IMG/VR virus record: IMGVR_UViG_3300043464_000465
Coordinates: 1-26,047 of that record
Direction: 5' to 3' (one strand)
Length of the DNA: 26,047 bases
Source of the DNA: a virus
Shown: in pieces, positions 1,045 to 21,248 of the stretch
Numbering within the stretch: the stretch's first letter is position 1
How the letters are laid out: every line of letters begins with the position of its first letter
The notes under the pieces: generated by a model
What the model was told of the DNA's origin: nothing
Database searches by the model: none
What the model saw: only the letters and a program-made list of their open reading frames with translations
Program-made: the position numbers and the translations under genes

Positions 1045-2474
1045 TATCTAGTACCCTGTGGAGTTATATCAATATCAATACCAATTGCATTAGACCAACG
1101 GTCACCACTAGGAATTACTGATAAACGATGATACTTTCCGCTACTCCGTAATGATACACGATTTTCACTATCTGCTGCTGTGTATGAACCTAACTGTGAA
1201 ACTGCGTTTAAAAGCATCCTAGAAGCTATTGCTACGCTACCAGAGCCATTATCTACTATTGGTCGTGCCAATGTAACCAAAGAAGTTACTTCGCTTCCTA
1301 TGTCACCAGTTTCTAATATTGCTGTAGAGTTAGCACCAGTAAAGGTAACTATCCTGTCATCTCTAGCACCAGCAAATAAGAATTTACCGCCAGACCACAA
1401 TGCATCATCTAGCGATGTAGTCAATGTGTCCATATTACCGTATAAATCTAATCCTTCCAATGTCATACCTGCTGATGCAGAACTTGCTACGACATCAACG
1501 TCAGTTGTGCAATATGACCATTTGTTTACTTGCCAGTTGTAAATAAGCAAAGTGTTTTGTGCAAAGTTATCAATAAACTCCCAAACGACAATCTTACGAA
1601 TTGGGTCAATCGTTGATGACATTAAGTTAAGTTTAGATGGGTTGGCATTAGCATAGAACCAAGCATCTACCTTTTGTGTACCTATTGGTGTAACGGTAGT
1701 GCCATCGCATGAGTAAAAGCCATCAGCACCTAAGAAGTAAGTCATGCTGCCGTACTGCACAACAGAACTGCCTTCTACGCAACCAATGTTACGGCTGATA
1801 GTGTCAAACTGAAAGAATAATGGCGAACCAATGTAAGACATACGGACAATGGCACGGTCTAGCAATATAAGACCAAACTCACCACCAGTCATGCCGGTAA
1901 TGTTGCCACCATCAGAAATTATTTGGTAGTCGGATTGTGATGTAGCACCAGACACCCAGTCTGATTCGTCATTAATATCAGACCATTGCACTTTATTTGA
2001 GTTACTACCGCTATCTAAGTTACCGGCTACTACAAAGTCACGAACTACTGTAACGTACTTAGCTATAGGTGCATCTACGCTTAAATCATCAAATGTTGTA
2101 CTTGAGCCAAGTGTGTAGCCTTGCAATTTATTGATGTTGTTAGCACAGATAATCGTGTTGCCAAACTGAGTAAAGTACCATTTAACTACGCTGCTATAAT
2201 TGCCAGTCTTAGACACGTTATCCATGCTTAAATCAGCACCATCTAACTTAAATAGCTTAGTAGCACCACCAGCAAATATATTTGTTGTGGAACTAAACTT
2301 ACCAGCAAATACGTTATTAAGGTTTTCACTAGCAGCAGCAGAGTAATTTACAGCAGTCGGGAATGGGTTGTAGCCTAATGCAGTAGGAACTACATTCTTA
2401 GCCACAGATAAGTTTTGAGCAACACCAGCTAAGTCTGGTGTCCATTCTGTAAATGCTATGCGTTGAGTAGCCAT
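1044..2474 (-). CDS. P22 gp10-like tail/DNA-stabilisation protein
   Basis: 476 residues, close to the roughly 470 of P22 gp10, the head-closure protein that sits under the portal and keeps packaged DNA in. The N-terminus (MATQRIAFTEWTPDLAGVAQ, then VVPTALGYNPFP) is the usual start of this group, in which the protein lists a set-point and then runs into beta-propeller-like repeats. Later blocks such as NKVQWSDINDESDW and FFQFDTISRNIGC fit the same family. The gene lies between fibre genes and starts on TAATG with the stop of the upstream fibre gene. Assignment rests on recalled family pattern and length, not on an alignment. Confidence 0.7.
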   Translation of the reverse strand: MATQRIAFTEWTPDLAGVAQNLSVAKNVVPTALGYNPFPTAVNYSAAASENLNNVFAGKFSSTTNIFAGGATKLFKLDGADLSMDNVSKTGNYSSVVKWYFTQFGNTIICANNINKLQGYTLGSSTTFDDLSVDAPIAKYVTVVRDFVVAGNLDSGSNSNKVQWSDINDESDWVSGATSQSDYQIISDGGNITGMTGGEFGLILLDRAIVRMSYIGSPLFFQFDTISRNIGCVEGSSVVQYGSMTYFLGADGFYSCDGTTVTPIGTQKVDAWFYANANPSKLNLMSSTIDPIRKIVVWEFIDNFAQNTLLIYNWQVNKWSYCTTDVDVVASSASAGMTLEGLDLYGNMDTLTTSLDDALWSGGKFLFAGARDDRIVTFTGANSTAILETGDIGSEVTSLVTLARPIVDNGSGSVAIASRMLLNAVSQLGSYTAADSENRVSLRSSGKYHRLSVIPSGDRWSNAIGIDIDITPQGTR

Positions 2475-3481
2475 TAGCGTAACTCAGCCCAGTATAAAGA
2501 ACCAGTACCACGTATAGCATTTGCTCTATAGGTTGCACCATTTGGAACAATAGCAGTCATGTTATGTATATCATTACCACCACCGCCTACTTGACCAGTT
2601 TGACCAACCAGTACACCACCAACATATAATTCTAATCCACAATCCGCAGCAGTATGAGTAACAGAAAACATAATTGATTTTCCTGTTGAGTTTGTATAAT
2701 CAGTAGAAAATGCTCTGCTTGCTGTTACGTTTTGCCAAGTTTGACCTACACCTATTGCATTTGCAGCACTAGTAGCAGTAGCAGCATTACCTGTTGTGTT
2801 TTGATTCCACGTAGGAACTGTTCCTGTTAATCCACTATATGCAACATTAGTAGCTGTTGCAGCATTGCCTGTGGTGTTCTGATTCCAAGTTGGTACTGTG
2901 CCTGTAAGACCTGAGTAGGCTACATTGGTAGCAGTTGCAGCGTTACCTGTACAAGAACCAGATGAACCAGTTACATTACCTGTTACATTCCCTGTTACAT
3001 TACCAGTCACGTTACCAGTCACAGCACCAGTTAAAGCACCGGCAAAGGCAGTAGCCGTTACAGTACCAGTCACATCTAATGCTGTAGCTGGGTTAGTCTT
3101 GCCTACACCTACTCGGTTGTTTGTAGCATCAACGTATAGCGTATTGGAGTCAATGTTTAAGTTGTTTGGTATTGAGATAGCTGTACCGGTCAATGTTAGC
3201 AAGTCACCAGAAGCATCACCAAGTGTTGTGTTGCCAGTTGTTGATAACGCACCAATTGTCACACCACCAGTAAATGTTGATGTACCAGTAACGGATAAGT
3301 TACCACCTACGGTGAAGTTGTCTGCATCTGTACCGGTTTGTTGGTCTTTAACTTGAGCCATCAATTCACGGATAGCATTATTGATACCAGATGGCGCACA
3401 TCCCTCGGCAATGTCTATGCCACCAATGTCTGTGTTATTGGCTGCCGTAGCACTCCACTCACTAATTTTATTTTTTGCCAT
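2474..3481 (-). CDS. Tail fibre protein with TGNV and duplicated peptide repeats
   Basis: 335 residues. The N-terminus (KISEWSATAANNTDIGGIDI, then INNAIRELMAQ) is the standard phage fibre start that docks to the tail. The middle has four TGNV units (DNA about 2960-3030) followed by two adjacent copies of the peptide GNAATATNVAYSGLTGTVPT and its WNQNTT continuation. The C-terminus (GQTWQNVTASRAFSTDYTNS, then SIMFSVTH) resembles a terminal domain shared by many phage fibres and is the likely host-contact end. A good ribosome site (AGGATAGGA) precedes the ATG. Function as an adhesive fibre is inferred from these patterns. Confidence 0.8.
   Translation of the reverse strand: MAKNKISEWSATAANNTDIGGIDIAEGCAPSGINNAIRELMAQVKDQQTGTDADNFTVGGNLSVTGTSTFTGGVTIGALSTTGNTTLGDASGDLLTLTGTAISIPNNLNIDSNTLYVDATNNRVGVGKTNPATALDVTGTVTATAFAGALTGAVTGNVTGNVTGNVTGNVTGSSGSCTGNAATATNVAYSGLTGTVPTWNQNTTGNAATATNVAYSGLTGTVPTWNQNTTGNAATATSAANAIGVGQTWQNVTASRAFSTDYTNSTGKSIMFSVTHTAADCGLELYVGGVLVGQTGQVGGGGNDIHNMTAIVPNGATYRANAIRGTGSLYWAELR
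2795..3035 (-). repeat. In-gene repeats of the tail fibre
   Basis: This covers the TGNV units (12-base period, about 2960-3030) and two copies of a 26-residue unit at about 2810-2960. The two long copies encode the same peptide but differ at many third positions, so the DNA copies are visibly diverged while the protein is conserved. They are protein repeats, not regulatory DNA. Confidence 0.75.
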
Positions 3482-5207: not shown

Positions 5208-7571
5208 TTATAATAAATAACTAATTGCAGCGTTATCATGTTGAGTGGTGTCAATATAAAAAGTAAAGCGAACATATGCAGGGCTAGATGTATTATATAT
5301 AAGCGTACCGCCACTCCAAGATAAAGTTCCTGCCGATATAGAGCCACCAAAATTAGAATTTGTCTGCACGACGCAAGTGCTTACATTATAATTAATTGCA
5401 CCGCCCCCTGTTCGCCAAGCCTGTGCATAACCAATTATTTCTGCTGTATTTGCTGAAACTGCCGACACAGCAAGAATTCTAACTTTTAGAAATACCCCAC
5501 CATTGCTAGAAACGCTACTGACTGTCAATAAGTTTTGATTAAGATTTGAGTCCCCACGGATAACACTCCCCCGTGCTAAATTGGTGGCGTAAACGCCAGT
5601 TTGTTCAAAAACAGTATTAGCTCCGCCATCAGAACGCATTAAATAAGATGGTCTGCCATCACCATCACTTAAAATAATTTGACCGCTTGATGTGCGGATA
5701 TCCAAACCGTATGAATTTCCATCATAGCGACCAACAATAGTGTTTTTACTACCAGTAGTCATGTAGTAGCCAGCACCGTTTCCAATTACTGTATTTAATG
5801 TACCTGTAGTATTGCTAAATAAAGACTCCGAACCAATGGCAGTATTTCTAATGCCAGTATTAGTATTATAAGCTGCTTGATAACCTACTGCTGTGTTCAA
5901 AGATGCTGTAGAGTTATTAGTTAAAGCAGCCGTACCAACAGCTACGTTTTGGCTACCTGTTGTATTTGCCGCTAATGCTCCATAGGAAACACCAGAAATA
6001 TCTCCACCCAAAGCTGTATTTGCAGTCCCTGTTGTATTTGCCCTTAATGCACCAAAACCAACAGATACATGAGATTGACCAGTTGTATTAGACAATCCAG
6101 ACTCTAATCCAATAAATACATTGTTTATACCTGTGGTAGTTGCCGCCCCTGCTTTCCATCCTACTGCTGTGTTGTTAGATGTTGTATTTGATAATAATGC
6201 TTGAAACCCTACAGCAGTATTGTTATTTCCATTAATTAATGCATCAAGTGAACCATTTCCAATTGCTATATTATTAGCACCTGTGGATGTTCTCCATCCT
6301 GCCTCTTTACCAACAAATACATTATCAAAACCAGTTGTAACTGAAAATCCAGAATTTAAACCAACAAATACATTATTTGTACCAGTAGTTAATCCTTCGC
6401 CAGATTGAAAACCTATAGCAGTATTTCCTGCCCCTGTGGTGCTTGTATAAAGAGCTTGATAACCTACTGCGGTGTTACTAGCACCTGTGGTGTTTGAATA
6501 CAGAGATTGATAGCCTACTGCTGTATTATTAGATGCTGTGGTGTTCCCACGCAAAGCCTGCATACCAATTGCAGTATTACTGCTTCCTGTTGTATTATTT
6601 CTTAATGATTCATACCCTACAGCAACATGATATTGCCCAGTTGTATTAGACAACATAGAAACACAACCAAAAGCAGAGTTTGCCGCCCCAGTTGTATTAG
6701 AATAAAGTGCTTGTTGACCAAAAGCTGCGGCAGCATCGCCAGTTGTATTTGTATACCCAGCTTGAAAACCTACGGCTGTATTGCCAGTTGCTGTGGTGTT
6801 GTTTTGCAAAGAGCCGCTGCCAACAGCAACATTTTGTGCGCCAGAAGTTGTAGCATTTAATGAAGCCCATCCAACTGCCGTATTATTTGCAGCAGTTGTT
6901 ACTTGTAATGCCTGTGAACCTACCACAGTATTTTTTGTACCAGCTACTGCTGTTAATGTTCTATCTCCAACGGCTACGTTTTCACCGCTAGTAGTAATTC
7001 CCATTCCAGCCTGATATCCTAAAGCTGTATTAGTTGCACCAGTAGTATTAGCAGCCAAAGCACTCACACCAACCGCAGTATTACTTGCTACAGCACCAGC
7101 ACCCTTACCTACTGTTAGACCTTGGATAGTAGCACCACCAGTTACGGTTAGGTTGCCTGATTCGTTTAGTATAGCTGCTGATGATGTGCCACCATTAACA
7201 GAAAATGAAATTTGATATGCAGATACAATCTCTGTACCAACACCAGTTTTTAATCGTAATCCATAACCACTAGCCGGAGCTAAACTTGCTGAAGGAAAAT
7301 TCAATGTACCTGAATTTACAGTTCCTGTGACGTTCATATTAGTGCCATCAAATGTTAAGTTAGCACTATCAGATAACAAGCCACCTGTTCCAGCATAAAC
7401 AATACGACCTGATGTCAATGCAGATGACGTAACTGTAGAGCCAGCAATCGTACCAAAAGATACGTTATTGCCTGCTTGATATTTATCTGTGTTTAGGTTG
7501 GTAAAGTTATTATCAACCTCGTTCCAAGTAAGCGGACTTCCCTTACCAGCTCTGGTTACAATTGTACTCAT
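5208..7571 (-). CDS. Long tail fibre with YadA-like left-handed roll repeats
   Basis: 787 residues. The N-terminus (TIVTRAGKGSPLTWNEVDNN, then FTNLN) is a common phage fibre start. About residues 160-615 are built from units of roughly 14-27 residues around N(T/N)(A/V)(V/I)G..(A/S)L..NTTG, the signature of the YadA/trimeric-adhesin head roll. The last 150 residues lack the repeat and form a separate, probably globular, tip. The protein should be trimeric and contact the host surface. It is the largest tail gene here and is followed by the small DUF7936-like gene. The repeats may vary by recombination. Confidence 0.8.
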   Translation of the reverse strand: MSTIVTRAGKGSPLTWNEVDNNFTNLNTDKYQAGNNVSFGTIAGSTVTSSALTSGRIVYAGTGGLLSDSANLTFDGTNMNVTGTVNSGTLNFPSASLAPASGYGLRLKTGVGTEIVSAYQISFSVNGGTSSAAILNESGNLTVTGGATIQGLTVGKGAGAVASNTAVGVSALAANTTGATNTALGYQAGMGITTSGENVAVGDRTLTAVAGTKNTVVGSQALQVTTAANNTAVGWASLNATTSGAQNVAVGSGSLQNNTTATGNTAVGFQAGYTNTTGDAAAAFGQQALYSNTTGAANSAFGCVSMLSNTTGQYHVAVGYESLRNNTTGSSNTAIGMQALRGNTTASNNTAVGYQSLYSNTTGASNTAVGYQALYTSTTGAGNTAIGFQSGEGLTTGTNNVFVGLNSGFSVTTGFDNVFVGKEAGWRTSTGANNIAIGNGSLDALINGNNNTAVGFQALLSNTTSNNTAVGWKAGAATTTGINNVFIGLESGLSNTTGQSHVSVGFGALRANTTGTANTALGGDISGVSYGALAANTTGSQNVAVGTAALTNNSTASLNTAVGYQAAYNTNTGIRNTAIGSESLFSNTTGTLNTVIGNGAGYYMTTGSKNTIVGRYDGNSYGLDIRTSSGQIILSDGDGRPSYLMRSDGGANTVFEQTGVYATNLARGSVIRGDSNLNQNLLTVSSVSSNGGVFLKVRILAVSAVSANTAEIIGYAQAWRTGGGAINYNVSTCVVQTNSNFGGSISAGTLSWSGGTLIYNTSSPAYVRFTFYIDTTQHDNAAISYLL
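5726..7091 (-). repeat. Tandem YadA-like repeat block within the fibre gene
   Basis: More than fifteen degenerate copies encode NTAVGYQAL-type strands separated by NTTG turns. Period and spacing vary slightly. The units are translated in one frame throughout, so they are protein-level repeats. Confidence 0.8.
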
Positions 7572-19583: not shown

Positions 19584-19948
19584 GCGTATTTCTCTTTTAA
19601 TTTAAGAACAGCATCGTGCAATGTAATGCGTGAGTTTGGTTCGTGCCATTGTTTTTTCCATCTGTATTTAGATACAAGCGAATTGCCTAGGTCAATCTCG
19701 TCATGGTCTACGTGAGATGTTAAAAATACAAACGACTGTTTTCCTGTTTCGTAACACATATCGCAAAGACGTTCTAAAGCAAGCTGCTGACCAAATGGCA
19801 TTTGTGCATCTAAGTATTTTGTTTCAATAAATATGTATAGCTTATTGTTAAACTCCATAAACGCATCTAAATCCATTGGAGTTATCTTTCCAAATGTCAT
19901 GTTGTCAAAATTGACAATGCTTCTCATATGTTCACGATTGCGTATCAT
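19580..19948 (-). CDS. PD-(D/E)XK-like nuclease-fold protein
   Basis: 122 residues. ITPMDLDAFMEFNNKLYIFI, then ETKY, then GQQLALERL gives D26/D28, E42-x-K44 and a following glutamine, the layout of small phage PD-(D/E)XK nucleases. It may trim DNA during recombination or degrade host DNA. AGGAGA precedes the ATG. The alternative is an inactive structural relative; the E-x-K and aspartates are present, so activity is plausible. Confidence 0.6.
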   Translation of the reverse strand: MIRNREHMRSIVNFDNMTFGKITPMDLDAFMEFNNKLYIFIETKYLDAQMPFGQQLALERLCDMCYETGKQSFVFLTSHVDHDEIDLGNSLVSKYRWKKQWHEPNSRITLHDAVLKLKEKYA

Positions 19949-20411
19949 AATGTTCTCCTAAAACTTCTCTTGCAGCCATAACTGAAGTTTCTGGAAAGTT
20001 CTGTGGATTCTTTAAAATTCGTTTAGCCCATGCATGGTAGTCTGTTTTTGGTTTTAATCGCTCATGTACATATAAAGCCAGCTTATCAGCATGAGCTTTA
20101 TTGCTTTCATGGTCTACTGGTGCAGGTAGCGCCTTAAAGTCTTGTATATTACTTGTAACGCAATGCTTTAAAAACTCATCGCAATTAGGTGCGTATTGGT
20201 ATTTAGCTTCTAATCCAGCTTTAATACGCTCTGCACTAATTCCTGCAAGTTCTGATGACCAAGTAGCCTTTGCGTTTGCTATACCTACGTCTTCACCAGC
20301 TTCGTTCACTTGACCTATCTTAAACTTATCAAAAAAGTTATTACCAAAACGACCATGTAGTCGCATAAAAATACGTTCAACCCATTCTGCTGGTAAATTA
20401 AAAGTCTGCAT
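19932..20411 (-). CDS. Lambda P-like replication protein (helicase loader)
   Basis: 159 residues. VERIFMRLHGRFGNNFFDKF, then AKATWSSELAGISAERIKAG, then LEAKYQYAPNCDEFLKHC follows the pattern of phage replication protein P. In lambda it brings the host DnaB helicase to the O-bound origin. Here it overlaps by 14 bases the gene of an O-like protein, the same order as in lambda. It is shorter than lambda P (233 residues). Assignment from pattern and place. Confidence 0.65.
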   Translation of the reverse strand: MQTFNLPAEWVERIFMRLHGRFGNNFFDKFKIGQVNEAGEDVGIANAKATWSSELAGISAERIKAGLEAKYQYAPNCDEFLKHCVTSNIQDFKALPAPVDHESNKAHADKLALYVHERLKPKTDYHAWAKRILKNPQNFPETSVMAAREVLGEHYDTQS

Positions 20412-21114
20412 TATTATCCCCTACTAATTTAATGTGAGCCGTTTGCTCTGCAATGTACTGTGGCTTAAATACTGAAAGAGCTGCATTTAATGTTGACGCT
20501 TGCTTATCTTGTTTTAACCACGATGCCTCAAATCCTGTCCATCCTCTCTCGCAGCAAATAGTAATTGCCTTATCTGGTGTAATACCTGCTAATGCTGCTT
20601 GCTTACATATTGCGTTAAACATACGCTCAGTTAATGGTGCTGCTCTTTTACTTTTTCTGATAGCTTGATACTCAGTAAATAATTCCGTAGGAATTGGTGG
20701 TATGTATTTAGTTACTGGTTTATGGTTAGTGGTTATTGGTTTATGGTTAGGTGACGGTTCGTCTACGGTTCGTGTACGGTTCGTGCTACCTTCCTTACGT
20801 TTAGCCTCTCTTTCAATCGCAATTTCTTTATTCCTATCAGCTTTAGCGTGATATTCTAAAAGTTCTTGCAGTATTCTGTCCTGCACATATTCACCATCTT
20901 TTGTAATAGTAAAGAACCTACTAAGAACAAACTTAACCGCATCAATCTCAGCTTCTGTAGAAGCCCAAGTCCATTCTATAGCCTGTTCTAATGTTGGGAA
21001 TACTTCACGGTCATAGCACGAATCAATCAAGAGCGTGTACGCTCCGTGTTGCAGCATTGTTAACCTTCCAGCTTTTTTAGCGTAATCGCCTAAATTTCTT
21101 TTGTAATAATGCAT
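20398..21114 (-). CDS. DUF1376 replication protein, lambda O-like
   Basis: 238 residues. The N-terminus YYKRNLGDYAKKAGRLTMLQ, then HGAYTLLIDSCYDREVFPTL, is the DUF1376 (YdaU-type) winged-helix domain that binds DNA in phage initiators. Residues about 108-138 are a flexible linker coded by direct-repeat DNA, and about 140-215 form a C-terminal helical domain (KSKRAAPLTERMFNAICKQA). The arrangement, DNA-binding part, repeat-bearing linker, then protein-contact part, with a P-like gene next, mirrors lambda O. GGAGAAAG precedes the ATG, directly after a terminator-like element. Confidence 0.75.
   Translation of the reverse strand: MHYYKRNLGDYAKKAGRLTMLQHGAYTLLIDSCYDREVFPTLEQAIEWTWASTEAEIDAVKFVLSRFFTITKDGEYVQDRILQELLEYHAKADRNKEIAIEREAKRKEGSTNRTRTVDEPSPNHKPITTNHKPVTKYIPPIPTELFTEYQAIRKSKRAAPLTERMFNAICKQAALAGITPDKAITICCERGWTGFEASWLKQDKQASTLNAALSVFKPQYIAEQTAHIKLVGDNNADF
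20711..20785. repeat. Iteron-like direct repeats inside the DUF1376 gene; candidate origin
   Basis: Two 19-base copies, GTTACTGGTTTATGGTTAG (20711-20729) and one with a single change (20732-20750), lie 21 bases apart. They are followed by three ACGGTTCGT copies (20754, 20765, 20776) with an exact 11-base period. The 11-base units are read in three different frames, so the repetition is kept at the DNA level. Confidence 0.6.
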
Positions 21115-21127
21115 TTGCTTTCTCCAT

Positions 21128-21208
21128 AAAAAAAGCCCTAGACAACACTCTCATCTTTTTTAGGGATGTTGACGGACTGGCTAGTACCAGCAGAGTGTTG
21201 ACTAAGGC
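21128..21208 (-). terminator. Terminator-like three-way-junction element before DUF1376
   Basis: On the minus strand a stem of seven plus nine pairs (plus 21135-21141 with 21202-21208, and 21143-21151 with 21192-21200) is interrupted by one U-U mismatch and followed at once by seven T (plus A 21128-21134). The one imperfect outer pair is a G-U wobble only in minus-strand RNA. Inside are two small hairpins, CTGG/CCAG (21177-21180 with 21187-21190) and CATC/GATG (21152-21155 with 21165-21168). The ribosome site of the next gene follows the T run. Confidence 0.65.
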
Positions 21209-21248
21209 TTACTAGTTGTTCACCGTCAAGTGATGTGATAACTATAAA

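Follow-up and report, generated by a model that had tools for sequence, protein, structure and literature searches.

The window, a viral DNA of 26,047 nucleotides (IMG/VR record IMGVR_UViG_3300043464_000465), contains two adjoining arrays of short direct repeats inside an O-like gene of the DUF1376/YdaU family. We infer, with a probability of roughly 0.8, that this region is a phage replication origin and that, like the lambda origin, it lies within the gene for its own initiator. Since the arrays are kept as DNA across many phages, they are very probably the site where copying of the genome starts. In the open-access literature we did not find any paper on a DUF1376 origin; of the five papers there that name DUF1376, not one pairs it with 'origin of replication'.

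Both arrays are read on the minus strand, which is the coding strand of the gene. The iteron array (20754-20784) consists of three 11-bp units (ACGAACCGTNN), with exact copies of ACGAACCGT at 20754-20762, 20765-20773 and 20776-20784, in steps of 11 bp. The coding strand reads AGC ACGAACCGT AC ACGAACCGT AG ACGAACCGT CACCT, and after a further step of exactly 11 bp comes a run of five 7-bp units of the form AACCAWD at 20714-20748 (AACCATA, AACCAAT, AACCACT, AACCATA and AACCAGT). This second array is A+T-rich by inspection and nearly free of G on the coding strand, and a degenerate AACT (20710-20713) stands after its last heptad. An AACC core is common to both arrays, with spacings of 11, 11, 11, 7, 7, 7 and 7, and occurs in all three frames (inside N-H, K-P and I-T codons); neither step, 7 or 11, is divisible by three. 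Scanning the window, we did not find three consecutive heptads anywhere else. The order and phasing of the two arrays were observed directly; that the heptad array is an opening element is likely, the opening itself being inferred.

A sequence-only reading of the window had already described two 19-base repeats with one mismatch and three ACGGTTCGT units with an 11-base period in the linker part of the gene. We located the 19-mers at 20711-20729 and 20732-20750, 21 bp apart. We also confirmed that the three units are exact copies 11 bp apart, that these ACGAACCGT copies do fall in three different reading frames, and that both arrays lie in linker codons. The 7-bp substructure of the 19-mers had been overlooked, together with the AACC that ties the arrays to each other: the in-frame 21-nt period of the 19-mers equals three heptads and therefore conceals a repeat of 7 nt that runs through all three frames.

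The gene (20398-21114, minus strand) encodes 238 amino acids. A Pfam search identified PF07120 at the N-terminus (residues 2-85, 20860-21111, E 2.7e-19) as the sole family, and Phage_rep_O was absent from the initiator. In PHROGs the protein matched 'primosomal protein' (E 2e-37), and residues 128-208 matched 'replication initiation O-like' (E 1.4e-12). The AlphaFold model (mean pLDDT 79.7) begins with a winged-helix-like fold and a long basic helix; residues 79-111 are predicted as one helix, the part that runs on from the DUF1376 domain being residues 86-111 (20782-20859). A disordered stretch, approximately 112-142, is the segment coded by both arrays, and a helical C-terminal domain follows (residues 141-208, 20491-20694). 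No sequence match was obtained for this protein in the PDB, while the top fold match found with Foldseek was DnaD (9a5c_B, E 2.7e-3, probability 0.87, low TM-score). On the strength of the model, the DUF1376 domain is predicted to be a DnaD-like winged helix, and it is likely the part that would bind the iterons, for which there are no binding data. The C-terminal domain is common, at high identity, to relatives that have another N-terminal half and the same P-like gene; it likely contacts the helicase loader, a contact that is inferred.

The next gene (19932-20411, minus strand, 159 aa) had been called P-like, and this received only weak support. Its three best PDB fold matches were all lambda P (9oa1), at a non-significant E of 0.9-3, and in one relative (L061) Pfam Phage_lambda_P scored E 0.031, below the cut-off. 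The product is likely a helicase loader, its P-like identity being weakly supported. Where the gene following DUF1376 has an annotation in named phages, it is mostly that of a helicase (replicative or DnaB-like), a helicase loader, a DnaC-like protein, a primase/helicase or replication protein P. Separately, we noted that the P-like gene is modular, with residues 92-159 recurring at 60-85% identity independently of the N-terminal half (window and L385-L412).

The repeats are far beyond chance. We compared them with 20,000 synonymous shuffles in which the protein was fixed and the codon usage of the window was used. All of the following exceeded the shuffles: periodicity at 11 nt (p = 5e-5) and at 7 nt (p = 9e-4), the three ACGAACCGT units (p = 5e-5) and the number of AACC (8 against a mean of 3.2 expected, p = 1.5e-4). 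Further, we collected 80 viral loci by protein, and the block is kept in 63 distinct sequences, a count that includes the gene of the window. In their heptads N was written AAC in 126/126 cases, P was CCA in 126/126 and T was ACC in 63/63, while outside the heptads of the same genes these codons made up 49%, 43% and 14% of N, P and T codons, respectively. Residues did change: HK (CATAAA) is replaced by QE (CAAGAA) in relatives and AACC stays, and the fifth codon encodes I, L, R or E with A always as its last base. Of 57 relatives, 98% showed a heptad periodicity above that of their synonymous shuffles. For period 11 only 56% of the relatives in the window's subfamily, where the middle iteron is often degenerate, were singly below p = 0.05. 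Among bacterial genomes picked by the DUF1376 N-terminal domain alone, Lautropia prophages with 62-66% GC still write AAT AAC CAA AAA CCA ATA ACC. These counts are not independent, as the sequences are related. The earlier proposal that selection acts on DNA is borne out by the alignment of relatives, in which the repeats are kept and linker residues vary, and by relatives with another N-terminal half, which have another 11-bp repeat in the same position. The arrays are preserved at the level of DNA and not via the protein.

They are also nearly confined to DUF1376 genes. When 2.9 million viral contigs were scanned blindly, at the DNA level, for five AACC heptads, at least 121 places were returned, at least 113 of them in same-strand ORFs; among the matches listed, 110 ORFs had a length of 100 aa or more, and 105 of these were DUF1376. 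In the loci fetched by protein we counted 199 four-heptad stretches in 85.7 kb of DUF1376 genes (84/113 genes) and one in 815 kb of flanking DNA, and there was one array per genome in 7/7 genomes. The consensus AACCAWD is present in four to eight units, and the N-terminal domains found with it have no more than 27-54% identity to one common reference. In 136 AACC genes outside the window's subfamily the heptads are on average 67% A+T, which ranks them at the 91st percentile of the flanking 400 nt on each side, and their coding strand has 5% G, below nearly all nearby stretches. A scan for CCAA heptads did not make a clean control, because 73/121 of its matches are the AACC arrays themselves.

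Relatives with the same gene and no repeats had been named as an outcome that would refute the origin, and this was observed only in part: approximately one quarter of DUF1376 genes are without a four-unit AACC array. Most of those inspected carry another G-poor, short-period array in that place, namely CCAACA hexads (encoding PTPTPT) or AAAC, AACT or ACCC heptads. The hexads are kept even in a gene with 71% GC (L339), and we regard the CCAACA array as a likely alternative opening array. We also observed, in DUF1376 genes of four loci from beta-proteobacterial genomes (L339 among them), CCAACA hexads that come after GCAATGCC/GGCAT-type units spaced by 11 bp. In E. coli K-12, ydaU has only weak, imperfect 11/12-bp repeats; by gene context it lies in Rac, a prophage with an active origin, oriJ (PMC3945230). 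The AACC class is therefore a large part of the DUF1376 family and not all of it. Two other replicons were considered as evidence. Plasmid pSWBY1 with DUF1376 proves nothing, because repM is also present, and a circular 52.8-kb Pseudomonas record with DUF1376 and no other listed replication initiator turned out to be a phage genome, not a plasmid.

The 11-bp array is general, its sequence is not, and the heptads are constant. In the 77 nt before the first heptad of the 136 genes the autocorrelation at period 11 was 0.463, compared with approximately 0.25 at most other periods, 0.32 at period 12 and 0.288 for period 11 in a control stretch. The unit types included GACGTTCAACG, AACGCAATGCG, AATCAGATCTG, AACCCAGTCGGTTA, GGTGATAGGGG-like and the window's ACGAACCGT. 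We observed that iteron type is associated with the N-terminal half of the initiator: the nearest neighbour by this half gave the right type in 93/111 genes, while the nearest neighbour by the C-terminal half did so in 45/102 (chance 0.30). Coarse N-terminal clusters gave no strict match to iteron type, and nearest neighbours show the link better. Natural exchanges occur in both directions. L038 and L051 have the window's C-terminus with different N-termini and upstream repeats, and members of their groups have the same P-like gene as the window; L022 and L026 have a window-type N-terminus and iteron type with other C-termini. Linked inheritance can be behind part of the association.

We propose the following mechanism, all steps of which are inferred. 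Several DUF1376 molecules, each using its winged-helix N-terminal half, would occupy the 11-bp iterons along one face of the helix. The initiator complex would then strain the adjoining A+T-rich, nearly G-free heptad array until it opens, and the invariant AACC units might be read by the initiator or the loader, perhaps as ssDNA, which would keep the bubble open and mark one strand. Finally, the C-terminal domain would bring the helicase by way of the protein that the next gene encodes, be it P-like, DnaC-like or a helicase. A role of the iterons as putative double-strand docking sites is supported by the N-terminal association, without binding data, and the heptads, judged by composition, position and constancy, would likely serve as an opening and strand-capture element. 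Recognition of the heptads as single strands remains a hypothesis. GC skew, which had been suggested as a check, gives no independent support. Its minima lay within approximately 2 kb of the DUF1376 gene in only 3/7 genomes, and in the remaining genomes they fell at the contig end; in the window the minimum coincides with a switch in gene direction. We therefore discarded skew in these seven genomes as uninformative, being confounded by gene direction.

In lambda, iterons and an AT-rich tract lie in the middle of O, and the O protein binds both the iterons and ssDNA of that tract (PMC7466680). The region described here resembles it in position, midway along the initiator gene in the linker that separates the DNA-binding from the loader-binding domain, in the order of iterons followed by an A+T-rich tract (PMC7466680 for lambda) and, probably, in having a P-like gene next to it, the identity of which is weakly supported here. 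It differs in the initiator, which has a DUF1376 domain, DnaD-like in its model, instead of Phage_rep_O. It also differs in the iterons, which are 11-bp direct units of several types; the near-palindromes of approximately 18 bp with hyphenated dyad symmetry found in lambda are not present here. Moreover, the A+T-rich tract is here an ordered 7-bp AACC array common to many phages. DnaD is known to bind a strand-specific repeated ssDNA motif (TnnT) of the opened origin (PMC10201434). The DnaA-trio/DnaD element of Bacillus oriC resembles the present arrangement in that double-strand boxes are followed by a short-period strand-specific array, and the DUF1376 model resembles DnaD; the units here are 7-nt AACC, with hypothetical ssDNA binding, in place of 3-nt trios or TnnT. 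Iteron plasmid origins (RK2, F and P1) likewise place initiator iterons beside an A+T-rich unwinding region. They generally lie outside the reading frame of the initiator and have iterons of approximately 17-22 bp, while here the iterons are 11 bp and in the gene. In RK2 the unwinding region, too, consists of repeats, and these are bound as ssDNA (PMC5043065). With somewhat less than even confidence, we suggest that the heptad array is a general ssDNA recognition element of a large, unrecognised class of DUF1376 origins. The N-terminal domains would choose their own iterons, and a 7-nt (or 6-nt) G-free array would be a common code for opening and helicase loading on a fixed strand, comparable to DnaA-trios.

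Other explanations of the arrays have to be weighed. They could be merely protein repeats in a flexible linker (NHKPITTNHKPVT), the likeness in DNA following from the amino acids; in favour of this are the in-frame 21-nt period and the disorder that the model shows for this region. This explanation is already contradicted and can hardly be maintained: it is rejected by the synonymous shuffles, the absolute codon choice holds in the heptads only, steps of 7 and 11 do not fit codons, and residues change while AACC stays. Moreover, the high-GC Lautropia prophages keep the AACC block and the 71% GC gene keeps its CCA ACA repeats.

If the arrays instead serve the DNA, they might do so as an operator or a partition (centromere-like) site of the DUF1376 protein. 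Repressor and partition systems, too, can have tandem sites of 7 bp and 11 bp, and a tracking of iteron type with the N-terminal half would fit such sites as well. We nevertheless consider this improbable, as the arrays are in the middle of the gene beside an A+T-rich, G-poor tract, the next gene in named phages mostly encodes a helicase, loader or primase, and no partition gene was tied to the arrays in the loci read. Still less probable is that the heptads are mainly a recombination seam for swapping the DNA-binding and helicase-loading halves of the initiator. Module boundaries do fall at the heptads, the window, L038 and L051 joining the same C-termini to different N-termini, and an Erf-like annealing protein is encoded nearby. 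However, for such a seam similarity would suffice, with no need for a codon-kept 7-nt lattice between N-termini 27-54% identical, and the phased 11-bp arrays would be left unexplained. An origin within the initiator gene remains our preferred reading.

Apart from the arrays, we observed conserved leaders upstream of DUF1376 genes. In the window, the 5' leader (21115-21240, minus strand) folds strongly (z -3.8), with an 18-bp stem, an inner hairpin, a 7-bp pseudoknot (TTGACGG/CCGTCAA) and a T-run just before the start codon. It is also found upstream of the gene in ten relatives. Across an alignment of 12 relatives nearly all base pairs persist despite many two-sided changes, the pseudoknot appearing as TTGGCGG/CCGCCAA, TTGGAAG/CTTCCAA or TTGGTGG/CCACCAA. 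No Rfam match was obtained for this leader, which is a candidate for a regulatory RNA of a new kind, or for an attenuator, of the initiator gene. Another conserved leader, unrelated to the first (approximately 110 nt before the DUF1376 start, GAAACACGGCTAGG...CCGAAAAG...CTGCCG..GTTTC) is present in twelve other loci, directly after a -10-like TATAAT/TACAAT and with a variable but self-complementary hairpin. It is probably another structured leader RNA, of phages that share one DUF1376 N-terminus. Elsewhere in the window, 2474-3481 and 5208-7571 encode long protein repeats (GNVTGNVTG; NTAVGxxAL-type) and are likely tail or fibre-type genes.

DUF1376 is still listed in Pfam as of unknown function, and many phages and prophages carry it, Rac of E. 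coli K-12 among them. The present finding supplies this family with a putative function, together with a predicted binding site and a predicted origin position that can be read from sequence alone, as AACC heptads preceded by an 11-bp array. A domain of unknown function thereby becomes a testable initiator-origin system, origins can be located in many uncultured phages, and the matched natural swaps offer a way to find the determinants of iteron specificity.
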